A stretch of DNA of 64,000 nt from Archangium lipolyticum (GTDB taxonomy: Bacteria; Myxococcota; Myxococcia; Myxococcales; Myxococcaceae): assembly GCF_024623785.1 (NCBI RefSeq), contig NZ_JANKBZ010000023.1, positions 62,001 through 126,000 on the forward strand, read 5' to 3'. Every line of letters starts with the position of its first letter. Position 1 is the first letter of the stretch. Shown here in pieces: positions 22,963 to 31,456 of the stretch. The notes under the pieces were generated by a model. That model worked only from the letters and a program-made list of their open reading frames with translations, searched no databases and was not told where the DNA came from. Made by a program: the position numbers and the translations under genes.

Positions 22963-25900
22963 TCAGGGCATCGCCAGCGAGAGCACCGAGGGCACGCGCT
23001 CCGGGGCCGCGAGCCGCAGCAGGCCATAGCCGATGCCGGCCAGGCCCATCAGCAGCCCCGGGGTCTCCGTGCCCCGGGGCAGTCCGCAGAGCCAGCCGCG
23101 CTCGCGTCCGGTGTGGATGACGTGGGCCGCGCGCTCCAGGGCGGCGCGGCTCCATCGCGGCTCGCCGAGCCGCTCGCCCGCCAGGTGCAGCGGCTCCAGG
23201 TTGCCCATGTCTCCATGGCAGAGGCAGTGGTTGCCGCCGAAGCCCTCGCGCAGGGTGGTGTCCAGGGCCGTCTGGAGCTCCGCGCGTGTCTGGTCGTCGT
23301 CCTCGTGCCGCAGCGAGCACAGCCTCCCGAGCGCGATGCCCGGGGCCCCATGGCACCACGACACCATGAAGCCGGTGGTGAGGCCCTCCGCGCCTTTCTC
23401 GGGCTCGCGCAGGTCGCGCCAGTTGGCGCGCTCGGGGACGAAGAGGGCGCGCTCGTAGGTGAGGCCCTGTTGAGCAAGCTCCCGGTAGCGCGTGTCGCCG
23501 GTGGCGGCGGCCAGCTCCAGGAGGGCGTACGCGATGCCCGCCACGCCGTGGGAGAAGCCCGACAGGGGCCGATCTCCCGCCGGGCCCTTCCAGCCCACGC
23601 CCCCCTCCGGCATGGGTTGGGCGGTGGCGAGGAGCCGCTCCCCGCATCGTCTGGCGGCCTCCAGGAACCGCGAGTCCCGGGTCCGGGCGTGCAGCCCGAG
23701 CAGGACGAGCGTGCTCCCGGCGGAGCCACTGAGCAGATCCAACCGCGTGTCGGAATCGATGAGCGCTTCCAGCGCCGGGAGTCCCTCGCGCACCTCGTCC
23801 AGCAGCTCCGGCTGGTTCCAGAGGACGGCCAGGTGCCCGAGCACGTACGCGGCGGAGGTGCGGCCGACGAAGGCGCCCACGCCCGTGTCGCTCGGGTCGG
23901 GGTTGCGCCAGGCGTCCCGGACGGGCTCCAGGGCCGCGCGGGCGAGCTGCTCGAAGTCCGCGCGTCCGGTCTCCCGGGCGAGGTAGGCGAAGAACAGGGC
24001 GAGCCCGCCGACGCCCTCGTACACGTCCGTCCCGAGGGGCGCGAGGCTCCAGCGCCACCGGTCCAGGTCCTCCAGGTTCATGCCGATCCAGGTCGCGTCC
24101 GTGCGTCCCCGGATGGCCTTGGCCGCGAGGTCCTCTCCAATGGAGATGGCGGCGGCGAGGCACTCCTCGCGCGAGGCGGGCGCGGGGGTGGCCCGCTGCG
24201 CGGCCCGGGCGACGACGGGCGCGGCACCCCGGCCCTTGTCGAGGGACACCATCGACTTGCGGATGAGCGACACCTGCCAAGCGCAATCCCTCTCATCCAA
24301 CCCCGCGAGCCGCTCCCGCACCTCGCCCAGACTGTCTTGCGCGAAGTAGTCACGGATGCACTCGCCGGTGCTGCTCCACAGGTGGCGCTGGCCGGGCCGC
24401 GTGGTGAACATGGGGATGTCCCCGAGCCGCAGGTCCGCGTGCTCGTAGGGGACGAGCCGCCGCAGCGAGGGCCACACGGTGGCCTCGGCCCAGAGGTTGT
24501 CCAGCACCTTGTCGCGCTCCAGGCCGTCGCGCAGGAAGTCGGGGTGGAGGCTCTCCTGCAGCAGGAGGGCGTAGCGCTGGGTGGCGCGCACGATGTGGCG
24601 GACCTCCACGTCGGCGAAGCCCTGGAACCGGGAGCCGAGCTCCTCGCGGTGACGCATGAGGAGCCGGTACGTCTCCTCGAAGCCCTGGACGATGTCCTCG
24701 GTGTACTCGGAGGCGTCCACCGGCTGGCCCTGGAGCTGGGGCCTGTTGCTCGAGCCGGACGTGCGGCCCTGGCGGCGGACCACGCGCATGGTGTCATGGA
24801 GCGCGTCCTCCACCATGGGCACGGCCTGGGGTGACAGCTGGCCGGCCTCGCCTCCCAGCCCGCTCATGTCGACGCCCGCGCGTCCCCCCCGGCCGAAGAT
24901 GAGCATGGGCAGCATGCCGACGGAGACGATGGAGCGGTCGAGCGCGCCCCAGGCACGCTGCTGGGCCGAGTCCCCCATCTCCTGGGAGGCCCGCTGGTGG
25001 AAGAGCGCCTCCAGGTCCACGAGCACGGGGTACTCACCGGCGGCGATGAGGTTCTCCAGGTGGAAGTCCACGGCGGCGAGCGTGTGGAGCAGCGCCAGCG
25101 AGCTGCCCTGCCGCCAGTAGAAGCGTTGGAGGGCCTCGCGCGAGTCACAGCCCGCGGTCTCCACGTACTCGACCCAGCCGTAGGTGCCACGGTCCAGCAC
25201 GGTGAGCACCCGGTGCGCATGGCGCATGCCTCGCGTGTTCATCCACTCTAGGAGCTGTTGGAAGCGGACGTCCACCGCGAGCGACTTCGGCTTGTAGACG
25301 AGCTTCAGCCCGGAGCTGAACTGGAGCAGGAGGACACTCCGGCCCTCGCGGTGCAGGTCGGAGATGCCGCTCTGGAGTCCGGTGGGCAGCCCGATGTCCT
25401 GGCCTCCCTGGAAGGTCTGGCCGAGCAGCTCATGATCCGTGACGAGGTGCTGGAGGAGCTCCAGGCTCACGTCGAGCCACCGCTCGGTGCTGGTGGCCAG
25501 GAGCCGGGCGAGGACCGGGTACTCCTCCAGCAGCGCCATGAAGATCCGCGGCTCCCCCAGGTGCTTCGTCGAGAAGTAATGGAAGCGCTCCTGGGGCGAG
25601 CTCCCGGGGAGCTGCTCGAGCATCCGGGCCACGTTGAGCTCGAGGATGAGGGTCCGGGTGGACAGGTACTGGAGCCGCCGTGCGAGTCCCTCGAGCAGCG
25701 CGGCCTCGGCCTCGGGCGCCAGCAGCGGGCGCTCCAGACCATGGCGGGCCTGGAGCGCGGCCATCACCGTCCGCAGCCTCGCGGCGGCGATCCGGAGGAA
25801 CGGGTGGAACAGTCCCGAGAACGACAGCCCGGGCTGCCCCGGGGCGGAGGGCGCCTGGAGCGAGGCGGGCAGGGCTTCTCCGGCGTGCCGTTGCTCGATG

Positions 25901-26190
25901 ACCTCCTGGATGAGGAATACCCATGAGCCACTGTCCTCGGGCCCATCCTCCTGGCCTCCCGAGTGGGAGAGGAGCCGGAGGAAGTCCTGCCGGTCGAGCC
26001 CCACGCTCCTGAGCCGCTCGTCGAGGGTGGCGTCGTCTCCCGACATGAGCTGACGCCAGGCCTCCGCGCGGCGCTCGGCCTCCTCGCGAGCCGGGTCGTT
26101 CCCGTCGGACGGGGCACCTCCCTTCGCGGTGGCCCGCTCGTGGAGGAATGTCGCCTTCTTCCAGGGAAAGACAGGAGCAATGACTTGCAT
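22963..26190 (-). CDS. lanM: Class II lanthipeptide synthetase LanM
   Basis: LanM enzymes dehydrate Ser and Thr of a precursor peptide and then join the products to Cys to form lanthionine rings. The 1075-residue protein has the N-terminal dehydratase (DUF4135) region, with ERFHYFSTKHLGEP, LVYKPKSLAVDVRFQQLLEW and AAVDFHLENLIAAGEYPVLV. The C-terminal LanC-like cyclase starts near residue 720. Zinc ligands are present as Cys946 (SWCHGAPGI) and Cys991-His992 (LCHGDMGN). GFSHGVAGIAYALLELA is another cyclase motif. The ATG at 26190 is chosen with AGGTGAT upstream. It is the last gene of the minus-strand cluster, 37 bp after precursor gene lanA1. Length agrees with typical LanM (900-1100). Confidence 0.97.
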   Translation of the reverse strand: MQVIAPVFPWKKATFLHERATAKGGAPSDGNDPAREEAERRAEAWRQLMSGDDATLDERLRSVGLDRQDFLRLLSHSGGQEDGPEDSGSWVFLIQEVIEQRHAGEALPASLQAPSAPGQPGLSFSGLFHPFLRIAAARLRTVMAALQARHGLERPLLAPEAEAALLEGLARRLQYLSTRTLILELNVARMLEQLPGSSPQERFHYFSTKHLGEPRIFMALLEEYPVLARLLATSTERWLDVSLELLQHLVTDHELLGQTFQGGQDIGLPTGLQSGISDLHREGRSVLLLQFSSGLKLVYKPKSLAVDVRFQQLLEWMNTRGMRHAHRVLTVLDRGTYGWVEYVETAGCDSREALQRFYWRQGSSLALLHTLAAVDFHLENLIAAGEYPVLVDLEALFHQRASQEMGDSAQQRAWGALDRSIVSVGMLPMLIFGRGGRAGVDMSGLGGEAGQLSPQAVPMVEDALHDTMRVVRRQGRTSGSSNRPQLQGQPVDASEYTEDIVQGFEETYRLLMRHREELGSRFQGFADVEVRHIVRATQRYALLLQESLHPDFLRDGLERDKVLDNLWAEATVWPSLRRLVPYEHADLRLGDIPMFTTRPGQRHLWSSTGECIRDYFAQDSLGEVRERLAGLDERDCAWQVSLIRKSMVSLDKGRGAAPVVARAAQRATPAPASREECLAAAISIGEDLAAKAIRGRTDATWIGMNLEDLDRWRWSLAPLGTDVYEGVGGLALFFAYLARETGRADFEQLARAALEPVRDAWRNPDPSDTGVGAFVGRTSAAYVLGHLAVLWNQPELLDEVREGLPALEALIDSDTRLDLLSGSAGSTLVLLGLHARTRDSRFLEAARRCGERLLATAQPMPEGGVGWKGPAGDRPLSGFSHGVAGIAYALLELAAATGDTRYRELAQQGLTYERALFVPERANWRDLREPEKGAEGLTTGFMVSWCHGAPGIALGRLCSLRHEDDDQTRAELQTALDTTLREGFGGNHCLCHGDMGNLEPLHLAGERLGEPRWSRAALERAAHVIHTGRERGWLCGLPRGTETPGLLMGLAGIGYGLLRLAAPERVPSVLSLAMP

Positions 26191-26227
26191 GGGTATCACC
26201 TAGGTCGATGTCCGGGGGGCCGTGCGG

Positions 26228-26467
26228 TCAGCTGTCGAGGAGGGTGCAGTTGATGATTCCGCACGTCTGCTTGACGGGGCCGACACATCCCGTGGACGGT
26301 TCCTGCTCCACGGATCGTCCACCGATGATCCCGAGCAGCTCGCCCTCGTCGAGATCGGTCAGCGCCTTGCCGCACGGGCTCTCGGGAAGGATGGCGCGCT
26401 CCTCGGCGGAGAGGCTGGCGCGGAACGCGGGGTCCTTCCATGCGCGGACGATCAGTTCCTTCTTCAT
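26228..26467 (-). CDS. lanA1: Lanthipeptide precursor A1 (mersacidin/lichenicidin-type leader)
   Basis: The 79-residue peptide has a leader MKKELIVRAWKDPAFRASLS... ending in the double glycine at 49-50, the cleavage site for C39-peptidase exporters. The core is residues 51-79. It contains Cys61, Cys69 and Cys74, with Ser52, Ser58, Thr59, Thr68, Thr75 and Ser79 as possible dehydration sites, so up to three rings are possible. The part VKQTCGIINC is the ring-rich end. The leader is 78 percent or so identical to that of precursor A2. The gene lies between lanA2 and lanM on the same strand. Activity (antibacterial or other) cannot be told from sequence. Confidence 0.95.
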   Translation of the reverse strand: MKKELIVRAWKDPAFRASLSAEERAILPESPCGKALTDLDEGELLGIIGGRSVEQEPSTGCVGPVKQTCGIINCTLLDS

Positions 26468-26554: not shown

Positions 26555-26595
26555 GAACGCGGCGCCCGTCGGGTGGGTGCCTGGGCGCCGCGTTC
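26555..26595 (-). terminator. 13-bp perfect hairpin between lanA2 and lanA1
   Basis: GAACGCGGCGCCC (26555-26567) is the exact reverse complement of GGGCGCCGCGTTC (26583-26595), with a 15-base loop. In the transcript it would form a very stable hairpin about 65 bases after the lanA2 stop and 90 bases before lanA1. No T-run follows. It probably attenuates transcription or protects the lanA2 message from 3' decay, so the two precursors and lanM would be made in different amounts (inference). Confidence 0.6.
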
Positions 26596-26658
26596 CGGTG
26601 ATGGCCCAACACGTGCGGACGCCTGGATGCAGGCGACGATGCCGCAGGAGTTGAGGGT

Positions 26659-26886
26659 CTAGGGGAGCGGGCAGAAGTACGTGGGGGCGGGACAACGGAA
26701 CGTGTCGACCGAGTACTTGGGGTCGATCGGCCTCCCACCACCGGCGATGCCGCCCAGCTCGGCCTCGTCGAGCTCCGTCATCGCCCTCCCGGAGGGACTC
26801 TCGGGAAAAGCAGCGCGCTCCTCGGCCGAGAGGCTCGCGCGGAACACCGGGTCCTTCCATGCACGGATGATCAATTCCTTCTTCAT
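26659..26886 (-). CDS. lanA2: Lanthipeptide precursor A2, ended by an amber codon inside core-like sequence
   Basis: The 75-residue peptide has the same leader type as A1 (MKKELIIRAWKDPVFRASLS, double glycine at 49-50). The core, residues 51-75, holds two TxxC units, Thr62-Cys65 and Thr69-Cys72, plus Ser59, enough for two methyllanthionine rings. The gene ends at a TAG (26661-26659). In the same frame, directly after the stop, the DNA reads TLNSCGIVACIQA, which resembles the VKQTCGIINCTLL end of A1. So the precursor may be a truncated allele, or the stop may be bypassed. An upstream in-frame ATG exists but the leader homology begins at 26886. Confidence 0.9.
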   Translation of the reverse strand: MKKELIIRAWKDPVFRASLSAEERAAFPESPSGRAMTELDEAELGGIAGGGRPIDPKYSVDTFRCPAPTYFCPLP

Positions 26887-26976: not shown

Positions 26977-29205
26977 TCATTCCACCCGGCTGCTGCTGCG
27001 CATCTGGGCGCGCACCAGCTCCGCGTAGATGCCGCCTCGCAGGAGCAGCTCCTGATGCTTGCCGGCCTCCACCAGGTGGCCCTGATCCATGACCAGGATG
27101 AGGTCCGCATCCACCACGGTGCTCAGCCGGTGGGCGATGATGACGCGGGTGCCCTGGAGCGAGGCGAGCGACTGCTGCACCCGGCTCTCGGTGATGGCAT
27201 CGAGGGAGCTGGTGGCCTCGTCCAGCAGCAACACCGCCGGCTTCTGCATCAACGCCCGAGCCAGTGCCAGCCGTTGCCGCTGGCCTCCCGAGAGCGAAGC
27301 GCCGCGGTCCACCAGCGGCGTGTCGTATCCCATGGGCATGGCCATGATGTCGTCGTGGAGCTGGGCCAGCCGGGAGGCCTCGATGATGGGCTCCAGGGGG
27401 GTGGCCGGGTCGGTGATGGCGATGTTGCCGCGCAGCGTGGAGCTGAAGAAGGTCGGCTCCTGGGGCACCACGCCCATCTGGGCGCGCACCGAGTGCAGGT
27501 CCAGCTCCGTGAGATCCTCCCCGTCGAAGAGGACGCGTCCCGAGGAGGGCAGGTACAGACCGAGCAGCAGGTTGGCCAGCGTCGTCTTGCCGGCGCCCGA
27601 GCGGCCGACGATCGCCACGGACTGGCCGGGCTCGATGCGCACGGACACGTCCTGCACCACCAGCGGGGACGTGCCCGAGTAGCGGAAGGACACCCGGTCC
27701 AGCTCGATGCCGCCCTTCAGCTTCACCGTGCGGCTGGGCTTGGATGCGTCGCGCTCGGGCGGCGTGTCCAGCACGTCGTCGATGCGCTCGATGTAGCTGC
27801 GCAGCAGTTGAAGCTGCGAGCCCGTGGTGACCATGTTGCCCAGCGGCACCAGCAGCGCCCCGGCGAGCGCGTTGAGCCCCATCATGGTGCCCAGCGACAT
27901 CTTCCCCTCCAGCACCAGCAGCGCTCCGGCGGTGAGCAGTACCAGCGGCGCCACCAGCCTCAGCGTGCCCGTGAGCGCGTCCACCCAGGCCATCAGCCGG
28001 CCCCGCTTCAGCGACACGTTGAGCACGTTGACGAAGTTCTCCGAGAAGCGCTGCACCGCCTGGTGCTCCACGCCGAACGCCTTCAGCGTCTGGATGCCGG
28101 TGAGCATCTCGATCTGGTAGCTCTGGTTCTTCGCCTCCACCTCCAGGTTCTCCGACATCAACGCGCGTTGGCGCCGTGTGGACAGCAGGAGGACGAGGAT
28201 CTGCAGGGCTCCCAACCCCAGCACGATGAGCGCCATGATCGGGCTCACCACGAACAACAGCACCAGGTAGATGATCACCAGGGCGCCATCCAGCAGGGCG
28301 GAGAGCGTGCTGGAGGAGAGGATCTCCCGCACCGTGGCGTTGCTGTTGAGCCGCTGCATCAGATCGCCCGCCGCGCGCACCTGGAAGAAGGCGTAGGACA
28401 GGCCCACCAGGTGCTCCAGGAAGCCCAGCGTCATGCTCGAGTCCATGCGCGTGCGCAGCTCGAGCAGCAGGTGGCTGCGGATGAGCGAGGTGAGGAGCTG
28501 GAAGCCGGCCAGCGACATGAAGCCCAGGCCCACCACCAGCAACAGGTGCCTGTCGCCCTTGGGCACCACGCGATCGATGATCAGCCCCGTCAGCGCGGGC
28601 ACCGCCAGCGCGAAGAGCTGAAGGATGAGCGAGACCACCAGGATGCGCTGGAGGACGTGCGAGTGCTGGAGCACCTGCAGCGCGTACCTCGCGGCGGAGC
28701 GGGGACGGGGCTTCTTGCCCGTCTCGAAGTTCTCGCCCGGCTCGAGCAGCAGCGCCACGCCGGTGAAGGACTGGCGGAACCGCTCCAGGGACACCTTGCG
28801 CCGGCCGTGGCCCGGATCCAACAGGTGGACACCGTCCCGCCCCAGCTTCTCGAAGACGACGAAGTGCGAGAACTGCCAGTGGAGGATGGTGCCGGCCGGC
28901 AGGTACGTCAGCGCGTCCTCGTCCACGGAGACCCCCCGCCCGCGCAGCCCGAAGGAGCGGGCCGTGCGCAGGATGTCCAGCGCGGAGACTCCATCGCGCG
29001 CCGCGCCCATGGCCTGACGGACCTCCTCCAGCCGCACCGGCTTTCCGTGGTAGCCGAGCACCATGGCCAGACAGGCGGCGCCACACTCGATCTCCGAGAG
29101 CTGGCGCACCAGGGGGATGCGGCGCTCGCGGCCCCTCACGTGCAGGTTGCGGAACGCGGGGAACCGCTCGGTGAGACCCGGATGCCGGGCGGGTTCAGTC
29201 CTCAT
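26977..29205 (-). CDS. lanT: C39-peptidase ABC exporter of the lanthipeptide (LanT-type)
   Basis: This 742-residue protein removes the leader after Gly-Gly and exports the core. The N-terminal C39 peptidase has the triad Cys41 (EIECGAACLAMVLG), His114 (WQFSHFVVFEKLG) and Asp130 (VHLLDPGHG). Six membrane segments follow from about 170 to 460. The ATPase has Walker A GRSGAGKTT at 535-543, signature LSGGQRQRLALARAL and Walker B VLLLDEATSSLD. It starts inside the end of the adaptor gene (11-bp overlap) and precedes lanA2. All active residues are present, so it should be functional. Adaptor proteins encoded upstream suit its position in a Gram-negative envelope. Confidence 0.97.
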   Translation of the reverse strand: MRTEPARHPGLTERFPAFRNLHVRGRERRIPLVRQLSEIECGAACLAMVLGYHGKPVRLEEVRQAMGAARDGVSALDILRTARSFGLRGRGVSVDEDALTYLPAGTILHWQFSHFVVFEKLGRDGVHLLDPGHGRRKVSLERFRQSFTGVALLLEPGENFETGKKPRPRSAARYALQVLQHSHVLQRILVVSLILQLFALAVPALTGLIIDRVVPKGDRHLLLVVGLGFMSLAGFQLLTSLIRSHLLLELRTRMDSSMTLGFLEHLVGLSYAFFQVRAAGDLMQRLNSNATVREILSSSTLSALLDGALVIIYLVLLFVVSPIMALIVLGLGALQILVLLLSTRRQRALMSENLEVEAKNQSYQIEMLTGIQTLKAFGVEHQAVQRFSENFVNVLNVSLKRGRLMAWVDALTGTLRLVAPLVLLTAGALLVLEGKMSLGTMMGLNALAGALLVPLGNMVTTGSQLQLLRSYIERIDDVLDTPPERDASKPSRTVKLKGGIELDRVSFRYSGTSPLVVQDVSVRIEPGQSVAIVGRSGAGKTTLANLLLGLYLPSSGRVLFDGEDLTELDLHSVRAQMGVVPQEPTFFSSTLRGNIAITDPATPLEPIIEASRLAQLHDDIMAMPMGYDTPLVDRGASLSGGQRQRLALARALMQKPAVLLLDEATSSLDAITESRVQQSLASLQGTRVIIAHRLSTVVDADLILVMDQGHLVEAGKHQELLLRGGIYAELVRAQMRSSSRVE

Positions 29206-30142
29206 GTCCCAATGCTCCCTTCAGCCCCGGAATCAGCGTGACGAGGATGCGCTCCGTGCGCACGCGGGCGTCGGCCTGGGCCAGCATCCCGTCGAAGTAG
29301 TTGAACGTCTTTCCCTTGATGGTGAACGTGGTCTGCGGCACTCGCGCCTTCACCACCACCATGGGGCCCGCCAGCTGGACGGCATCCCCGCTGTCCGCCC
29401 CCAGGTAGCGGCGCACCTCGTTGGGTCCGACGACCTGGTCTCCCACGGACTCGATGGTGAACGTCTGGTACTGGTGGCTGAAGCCGTTGAGCTCCACGCG
29501 CAGCGGCTTGCCCGGCTCGAGCCTCGGCCGGTAGCCGCCGGGCAGCAGCGCCACCAGCGTCACGTTCACCTGGTCCCCCGTGACGGAGACCACGCTCTCT
29601 CCCGGGTTGACGTACTGGCCCTTGCGCACCTTCAGCGTGCTCACGACTCCGGCCTGCGGCGCCCGCAGCGTGCGGGCCTGCTGCCGGGCCTGTGCCAGTT
29701 CCCGCTCGGCGCGCAGCGAGGTGAGTGCCTGGCGTGCCGCCTCGTCCGAGGGGTTCTGAAGCACCCGGACGAGCTGAAGCTCGAACTCGCGCTGGATGCG
29801 CTCCAACGTGGACGTCTCCTCCCGCGAGAGGAAGCTCACCAGCGGCTGCCCCGCCTCCACCCGCTGCCCGGGTTGCACGTCCACCGAGGCGACGATTCCG
29901 GGCGCCTCGACGGTGAGCTCGCTCCGGCCCTCGACCTTCACCATGGCGGGGCCGGAGGCGTATTCGGGGATGGTGCCGAGCAGCGAATAGAGGGCCGCGG
30001 CGGCGATCAGGGCGAGCAGCAGCCAGTACGTCCACCGCGTCCACTTCGGAGAGATGCGGAGGATGTCCCCTTCGTCCTGGGAGCCTTCGTGGTGGCGCAG
30101 GGCTTCCTCCCGGAAGATGCGCGTGCGTTGAGTGGCTTCCAT
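29195..30142 (-). CDS. HlyD-family periplasmic adaptor
   Basis: The 315-residue protein has a cytoplasmic N-terminal tail of about 40 residues, a membrane anchor (WTYWLLLALIAAAALYSLLG), and then an adaptor body: lipoyl-like halves VEAPGIVASVDVQPGQRVEA and RAPQAGVVSTLKVRKGQYVN around a helical hairpin with ELAQARQQARTL. HlyD adaptors link an inner-membrane ABC exporter to an outer-membrane channel. The ATG at 30142 sits 2 bp after the upstream adaptor's stop, and the 3' end overlaps the exporter start. It most likely works with the C39 exporter; no TolC gene is nearby. Confidence 0.92.
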   Translation of the reverse strand: MEATQRTRIFREEALRHHEGSQDEGDILRISPKWTRWTYWLLLALIAAAALYSLLGTIPEYASGPAMVKVEGRSELTVEAPGIVASVDVQPGQRVEAGQPLVSFLSREETSTLERIQREFELQLVRVLQNPSDEAARQALTSLRAERELAQARQQARTLRAPQAGVVSTLKVRKGQYVNPGESVVSVTGDQVNVTLVALLPGGYRPRLEPGKPLRVELNGFSHQYQTFTIESVGDQVVGPNEVRRYLGADSGDAVQLAGPMVVVKARVPQTTFTIKGKTFNYFDGMLAQADARVRTERILVTLIPGLKGALGHED

Positions 30143-30144
30143 GG

Positions 30145-31113
30145 TCAAGGCGTTGCTCCCGTCGGCGCGGAGCCGCCCGTGCCCCTCCCACCCAGCTGCT
30201 GCGTGGGACCCGAGCGGACGTGGACGACCTGGCCCGTGGAGACCTCGGACGGCGGTGGCTGGCTGAAGGTGGCGGTGGCGAAGACCAGGCGGGCCGCGGC
30301 GTCCACCTCGGGCGCGATGCTCTCCACGGCTCCCATGAGCGTGAGGCCACCGCGCTGGAGGACCTTCAGCTCCACGGTCGCGCCCGGCTGGAGCCCGCGC
30401 GCCTCCTCCTCGGGGACGGCGAAGCGCACCTTCCACTCGCCGTTGCCGAGCAGCCGGAGCACGGGCTGTCCCGCCGCGAGGCGCGTGCCGGGACCGACGA
30501 GCCGGGCGGCCACCACGCCATCGAAGGGCGCCACGAGCGTGGCGTCGTCCAGGTTCTGCTTCAGCTCGGTCAGCTGGGCCTGGCGCTGGAGCGTCTGGGC
30601 CCGGGCGGCCTGCAAGCGGGCCTCGGCGGTGCTCTCCTCGTAGCGGACCTTGTCCAGCTCCTCCTTCGAATAGACGCCCAGCTGCAGCGAGCGCGGGGTG
30701 AAGTAGCGGCGCTTCCTGGCGCGGGCCTCGGACAGGGCGAGGGCGGCGGCGTGCTCCTCCGCGCGCGAGCCCTGGAGGGTGGCCTGGGCCGCCGCCAGCT
30801 CCTGCTGGAGCGCGCGCGTGTCGAGCCGCGCCAGCACCTGCCCCTCGCGGACGGACTGGCCCACCTCGACGACCACCTCTTCCAGCCGCGAGTCGAAGCG
30901 GGAGCTCACGTCCACGGTGTCATGGGGAATGACGACGCCCAGGAAGGGCTCCTCATTTCCCGAGCGGGAAGCGGCACCGCCGTCCACCACCAGGGCGGGC
31001 GTCGGGCCGTTCCCTCTCGAGTCGGGGTTCGCGAGAGCAGGCGCCATGACTCCCACGCTCCCCAGGCAAGCCAGTCCCCACCCCACCACCCTCATCCGCA
31101 CCCGATGCCGCAT
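30145..31113 (-). CDS. RND-type periplasmic adaptor (membrane fusion protein)
   Basis: The 322-residue product has an N-terminal hydrophobic signal (GWGLACLGSVGVMAPALA) and no C-terminal membrane segment. Adaptor features are the lipoyl halves EEVVVEVGQSVREGQVLARL and ATLVAPFDGVVAARLVGPGT around a coiled-coil hairpin with many Arg and Glu residues, then a beta-barrel part with EWKVRFAVPEEEA. It is the first gene of the lanthipeptide operon and is adjacent to a second adaptor, which is uncommon in LanM clusters. The ATG at 31113 is preferred, with GGGAGA upstream; ATG at 31095 is possible. No RND pump gene is nearby. Confidence 0.9.
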   Translation of the reverse strand: MRHRVRMRVVGWGLACLGSVGVMAPALANPDSRGNGPTPALVVDGGAASRSGNEEPFLGVVIPHDTVDVSSRFDSRLEEVVVEVGQSVREGQVLARLDTRALQQELAAAQATLQGSRAEEHAAALALSEARARKRRYFTPRSLQLGVYSKEELDKVRYEESTAEARLQAARAQTLQRQAQLTELKQNLDDATLVAPFDGVVAARLVGPGTRLAAGQPVLRLLGNGEWKVRFAVPEEEARGLQPGATVELKVLQRGGLTLMGAVESIAPEVDAAARLVFATATFSQPPPSEVSTGQVVHVRSGPTQQLGGRGTGGSAPTGATP

Positions 31114-31352
31114 CCATGTCTCCCGTGGCAGGTCCCAAAAGGGGAGAGGGGGCGCGAAGGTGTTGTGACGAGGAGCGGTGCAACGACGTGGCGCCGGATT
31201 CTTGGCGCCGCTTCCCCGCCGGCTCTCCCGGCGAGCCTTCCTGGTTGAAGGTTCCGGGCGGATTCTCGCGAATTGAGAGAGTGGGAAAGCCGACGCTTCT
31301 GTCGGGCGCGCGGCCCCGTCTTCGACGCGGAGGATGGGGATGTGTAGCGGAT

Positions 31353-31366
31353 CGCCACATGTGGCG
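31353..31366. promoter_or_regulatory. Perfect 14-bp palindrome CGCCACATGTGGCG
   Basis: The palindrome lies in the control region shared by the lanthipeptide operon and the pseudo-receiver gene, about 240 bp from the first and 130 bp from the second. It is followed by TTTT on the plus strand. It could be an operator half-site pair for a dimeric regulator, or a small hairpin. Confidence 0.4.
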
Positions 31367-31456
31367 GTTTTCCCTGACTCGCCCACTGGTCAGACCCAGA
31401 GGGCATGCTTAGTCATTCCGCCGACAATCGTGGTATGGGCGCGGCGCGAGTGGGAG

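Follow-up and report, generated by a model that had tools for sequence, protein, structure and literature searches.

A premature stop codon in lanA2 and the probable decay of one of two class II lanthipeptide precursors in an Archangium species

The class II lanthipeptide LanII-2B from Archangium violaceum has been made in E. coli and is described with a core of four Ser/Thr and three Cys residues. Two of the four Ser/Thr are dehydrated and two of the three Cys cyclised, giving one Lan and one MeLan. Its antibacterial activity was weak, and the authors consider the modification to be possibly incomplete (PMC9576775). For precursors of the prochlorosin type, pseudogenes are described as common (PMC10027976, citing Cubillos-Ruiz et al. 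2017). A survey of the literature by titles and the beginnings of abstracts gave no paper on the precursor A2 studied here or on its loss, and PMC9576775 may cover a relative of its neighbour A1. As judged from profile matches and gene neighbourhood, lanA2 is one of the two precursors of a class II lanthipeptide cluster in an Archangium species.

In the window, by which we mean the whole analysed stretch of 64,000 nucleotides, this cluster lies on the minus strand in the order lanT-lanA2-lanA1-lanM. The gene lanT (26977..29205) encodes a C39-peptidase ABC exporter of 742 aa (PF03412, PF00664, PF00005); upstream of it an HlyD-type membrane-fusion protein (29195..30436) and a second HlyD/HlyD_D23 frame (30145..31386) are found, both also on the minus strand. 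The class II lanthipeptide synthetase encoded by lanM (22963..26199, minus strand, exact start uncertain) has 1078 aa and reaches 1027.6 bits with TIGR03897 against a cut-off of 304 (PF13575, PF05147). Both genes are open, and so is the second precursor gene lanA1 (26228..26467, minus strand, 79 aa). With 59.4 bits for lanA1 and 71.0 bits for lanA2, both precursors are far above the cut-off of 23.5 bits for TIGR03898, the mersacidin/lichenicidin leader family. In its leader, its GG cleavage site and the LanM and C39 ABC exporter encoded next to it lanA2 resembles other members of this family, but the match spans only the leader (residues 6-50), while the core is unmatched and in the window truncated. 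At codon 32 of lanA1 (26372-26374) the leader in the window has a Cys, where G005 and three other relatives have a Ser (PESPCGK); this change is derived in the window.

As it now stands, lanA2 (26659..26886, minus strand) comprises 75 codons and a TAG. Its ATG at 26886 is preceded by AGGAGG, and start, leader and GG site are all present. The leader (26737..26886; MKKELIIRAWKD...GGIAGG) ends with the double-Gly and is identical at 135 of 150 nt to its counterpart in the genome G005. It is followed by a core of 25 residues (GRPIDPKYSVDTFRCPAPTYFCPLP; 26662..26736; 64 of 72 aligned nt as in G005), which has two Cys compared to four in the core of G005. The two TxxC ring sites reported for the shortened peptide in an earlier note on this DNA are indeed there, namely TFRC and TYFC. 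That note had also placed the end of the frame at the TAG at 26661-26659, which is correct in coordinates and reading, and had seen a core-like continuation behind it. In the same frame TLNSCGIVACIQA does follow, of which the first 33 nt (26626..26658) encode TLNSCGIVACI. The evidence for the TAG itself comes from one draft genome.

The pattern T/S-C-G-I-x-x-C, which the earlier note found shared between this tail and the end of lanA1 (...VKQTCGIINCTLLDS-stop), is present in both; however, the likeness is merely that of a family motif, and the tail belongs to the core of A2 itself as its C-terminal part. The 189 nt behind the TAG were subjected to 50,000 dinucleotide shuffles, in which the motif [ST]CGIxxC occurred once in the frame and the looser [ST]C[GA][IVL]xxC three times, while [ST]CG[IVL]xxC near the start of the frame did not occur at all. 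Because the shuffles so rarely give the motif, because 31 of the 33 nt are identical to coding sequence at the corresponding position of the operon in G005, within the syntenic orthologue, and because TLNSCGIVACV is also found in a gene of another genus (L046, see below), the tail is not a product of chance; the homology is here a stronger proof than the shuffles.

To find orthologues of A2, all six genomes of the genus were searched by DNA, and an A2 profile was run against 96 genomes of the family, giving matches in 31 genomes. The profile search requires a leader and therefore misses leaderless fragments such as the one in G003, which came from the DNA search. Four genes stand apart in the profile search with 158-188 bits, those of G001, G002, G005 and the window, the next best having 94 bits; G004 has three precursor matches, none of them A2-like. 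The A2 genes of G005 (FRCPAPTFFCPPPKTINSCGIVACI, ending ...FFCPPPKTINSCGIVACI-stop, with TAG), G002 (FRCPAPTFFDCQRTLNSCGIVACV, with TAA) and G001 (FRCPAPTFFDCQVTINSCGIVACV, with TAG) are syntenic with the window, and in each the stop comes directly after AC[I/V]. The end in G001 and G002 reads ...FFDCQ[V/R]T[I/L]NSCGIVACV-stop, and all three intact orthologues share NSCGIVAC without variation.

At the site of the TAG (26659..26661) G005 has AAG, G001 GTG and G002 CGG, this codon adjoining an alignment gap in G001 and G002. The site of the former stop (26623..26625) is CAG in the window only, and a stop in all four other copies, which are G005, G001, G002 and the fragment in G003. Because the relatives have a sense codon at the site of the TAG, and their stop at the site of the CAG, the gain of the TAG and the loss of the old stop are both derived in the lineage of the window. 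Compared to three of three intact orthologues with a sense codon, lanA2 thus has a disabling change that arose in this lineage, as is expected of a pseudogene. The comparison with relatives had been proposed in the earlier note, and the outcome which it had named as contrary, homologues all stopping at the same TAG with an unconserved tail behind it, was not found. The loss of the original stop, and the independent loss of A2 in a second species described below, go beyond that note.

Beyond the genus, 20 further loci of the A2 profile search were read, and L046 (from position 1696) of G042, which belongs to another genus of the family, was the one with the A2 tail stretch. Its leader and the start of its core are different. 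Further on in the core lies CTLNSCGIVACV, which contains TLNSCGIVACV and runs on into PPSYRICVE; the DNA of the motif is identical to the tail in the window at 28 of 33 nt. The tail motif is thus common to different genera, within different cores. Because it is also found in L046, the stretch lost in the window is the most widely conserved part of the A2 core.

We consider it probable, with considerable confidence, that lanA2 has been truncated by a nonsense mutation and is a gene in decay, with probable loss of one of the two class II lanthipeptides of the cluster. The truncation together with the loss of the old stop is well supported by the comparison with the relatives. A sense codon in the middle of the core would have become TAG in the lineage of the window, while 12 codons downstream the old stop would have become CAG; the simplest order is a gain of the TAG first and a neutral loss of the old stop thereafter. 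Since translation would halt at the TAG after 75 residues, the last ring region, T-x-N-S-C-G-I-V-A-C, would no longer be made. The mature A2 product would then presumably be lost or inactive, the cluster would now work through A1, and the residual leader and half-core would represent a decaying gene. The nonsense mutation proposed in the earlier note as one of three readings, which was said to have removed the second half of the core, has thus found support in three intact orthologues, while its being recent is likely rather than proven.

With regard to age, half of the A2 dS was used as the share of the window branch. A stop dating back to the split from G005 would predict about 4.1 neutral changes within the 33-nt tail on this branch, and one or two are seen (P 0.08 or 0.22). 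An identity of 31 of 33 is ordinary for this stretch, as 29% of 33-column windows reach it. It is likely that the TAG is recent, and most likely lanA2 represents a recently broken copy. On the branch of the window six non-synonymous and three synonymous changes were counted in lanA2, on the branch of G005 two and three, with five and four unplaced; the counts of 6:3 and 2:3 are not significantly different (p=0.58), so that a relaxed constraint on lanA2 is not demonstrable from them or from its dN/dS (given below), which speaks against decay, and none of the branch tests for selection is significant in the other genes either (lanA1 p 1.0, lanM 0.14, lanT 0.57).

A different reading is that the stop simply moved upstream and that LanM and LanT turn the 25-residue core with its two Cys into a smaller lanthipeptide, which selection maintains. 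Leader, GG site, both TxxC pairs, lanM and lanT are all present as this would require, the old stop has been erased, and the dN/dS of lanA2 between window and G005 (0.28, with the tail codons included and the stop codon left out) does not indicate a collapse; the values for lanT, lanM and lanA1 are 0.13, 0.31 and 0.38. If this were true, a new two-ring lanthipeptide would have been made from the N-terminal half of A2 by relocation of the stop, and the family would remodel its ring number by stop moves within the core. However, the NSCGIVAC which was lost is the part kept without change in all three intact orthologues and found even in another genus. Furthermore, four window-derived replacements (S26A, L27F, S48A, F70Y) lie at sites fixed in these three orthologues, which hints at relaxation without proving it. 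In the 96-genome search no other stop was found in front of an A2-like tail: an inner stop was flagged at five other places (L053, L055, L051, L156 and L155, in G017, G027, G055 and twice in G029), which turned out to be natural ends or unrelated cores without an A2-like tail behind the stop. We therefore regard a functional shortening as rather unlikely.

An error of sequencing or assembly might be suspected, as the genome is a draft of 75 contigs and the TAG is seen in one genome only. But an error would then have to account for two separate differences within 39 nt, a stop gained and a stop lost, in surroundings which are colinear with G005 at 92-93% identity and in which lanT, lanA1 and lanM are open, and such an error is very unlikely. 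Programmed stop bypass, which had also been considered in the earlier note, or amber suppression would yield the full core and would fit with a tail that is in frame and conserved. Against this, a CTA anticodon was not located by ARAGORN at the 64 tRNA places found with RF00005 (run on the covering loci), in a list that is incomplete, being without tRNA-Ile and having 150 of 162 candidates scored; and the profile search for PylS gave one match with 21.7 bits, below the cut-off of 178.15. TAG is an ordinary terminator for this gene, because the A2 of G005 itself ends with it. With the old stop gone, bypass would add 65 residues (the TAG residue and 64 more) up to the TGA at 26466-26464 (26464..26466, minus strand), which overlaps the start of lanA1 and where any read-through frame ends. 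This extension is not conserved, because lanA1 shares the frame of lanA2 in G005 but is in a different frame in the window, and a TAG at the site of the window is absent from G001, G002 and G005 alike. Bypass is in our view extremely unlikely. There is finally the reading of the tail as an ancestral third core, again proposed in the earlier note, or as a separate precursor downstream of lanA2, for which the motif resembling the end of lanA1 might speak. It was rejected and has almost no probability, as in G005, G001 and G002 the tail runs on without a leader of its own as the end of a single, continuous A2 core. Truncation of lanA2 by a nonsense mutation remains the best explanation.

Between lanA2 and lanA1 a hairpin is predicted (26555-26595, minus strand), consisting of a 13-bp stem with arms at 26583..26595 (5') and 26555..26567 (3') and a loop of 15 nt. 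The stem noticed earlier is real, its arms being 100% complementary, and the frame behind the TAG indeed meets no stop before it and stays open to the TGA. G005 has the same 26 nt in the arms, against differences at 6 of 15 positions in the loop and at about 22-30% in the flanks. The hairpin is not followed by a run of T, and it may set the ratio of A2 to A1. A dispersed repeat is unsupported, as a 77-nt query around the hairpin found in six genomes only this locus and its counterpart in G005 (E <= 0.001).

A second broken A2 was found in G003 (L018 1495-1542, minus strand, C203). About 20 bases after the stop of lanT lies what remains of A2 there, the last part of the core with its stop (CPRTINSCGIVACV-stop); the leader and the first part of the core are absent. 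Since lanT, lanA1 and lanM are open in G003 too, A2 seems to have been lost independently in this species, and from the opposite side. In total, A2 is intact in three of the five genomes in which the cluster was found, truncated on the 3' side in one and without its 5' side in another. Because A2 is broken in two of five clusters while lanT, lanA1 and lanM persist in all five, A2 appears dispensable to the cluster. With regard to gene order, G001, G002 and G003 have several kb with other genes (loci L070, L071 and L072) between A2, or its fragment, and A1 with lanM, while in the window and in G005 these lie next to each other.

In the genome of the window 14 precursors of the TIGR03898 leader family were found, of which six have a syntenic partner, as judged by DNA over the flanks, among the nine found in G005. 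These are A1, A2 and the pairs L123/L133, L129/L137, L132/L139 and L073/L135; a weaker match, L125/L135, was taken to be paralogous and left out. Two of these six, A2 and L073, have a broken core in the genome of the window but a kept leader. Compared to the syntenic G005 gene L135/L026, L073/L028 (G000:C37:79624-79803) has lost 60 bp of its core and carries a TAG two codons ahead of the old TGA. In addition, Cys is altogether absent from the cores of four precursors that do have a GG site, the first copy of L129 and L130 in the genome of the window (G000) and two copies of L150 in G002; because they lack Cys, these cores are presumably unable to form lanthionine rings.

The locus clearly illustrates birth-and-death evolution within a family of myxobacterial lanthipeptides, in which cores break while leaders and enzymes persist. 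An intact A2 in G005, a truncated one in the window and a half-deleted one in G003 offer a natural series for asking whether A1 depends on A2 for its activity. For genome miners a caution follows, as the 75-residue peptide predicted from this genome is probably no ancestral product.

LanII-2B is among the described systems closest to this cluster. The orthologue of lanA1 in G003 has the core KAALEPSTGCTDGVPTCGIVPFCDLEVA with four Ser/Thr and three Cys, which fits the counts given for LanII-2B (PMC9576775). Because these counts agree and because G003, a draft of 430 contigs, gave one LanM match, we infer that LanII-2B is the A1 peptide of G003, although the passages of PMC9576775 on this peptide carry neither sequence nor strain. 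In this case the LanM of this cluster would act on A1, and the A1-only state would be real in G003. LanII-2B differs from our case in being A1-like, and as G003 lacks an A2, no A2 product would be covered by that work. With two-peptide lantibiotics such as roseocin (PMC10027976; PMC9576775) the cluster has in common that it encodes two precursors whose leaders are of one type and whose cores are dissimilar, and in G005 such dissimilar cores are found by sequence. Unlike those, A1 and A2 are a putative pair, and because A2 is broken in the window and in G003, the pair would not be obligatory for retention of the cluster. Prochlorosins are Nif11-family peptides of picocyanobacteria (PMC10783134), whereas the leaders here are of TIGR03898. 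Nevertheless, because the core of L073 is broken too, four further cores are without Cys and pseudogenes are called common among prochlorosin-type precursors (PMC10027976), lanA2 adds a further case to a kind of loss that is already known from such precursor families.
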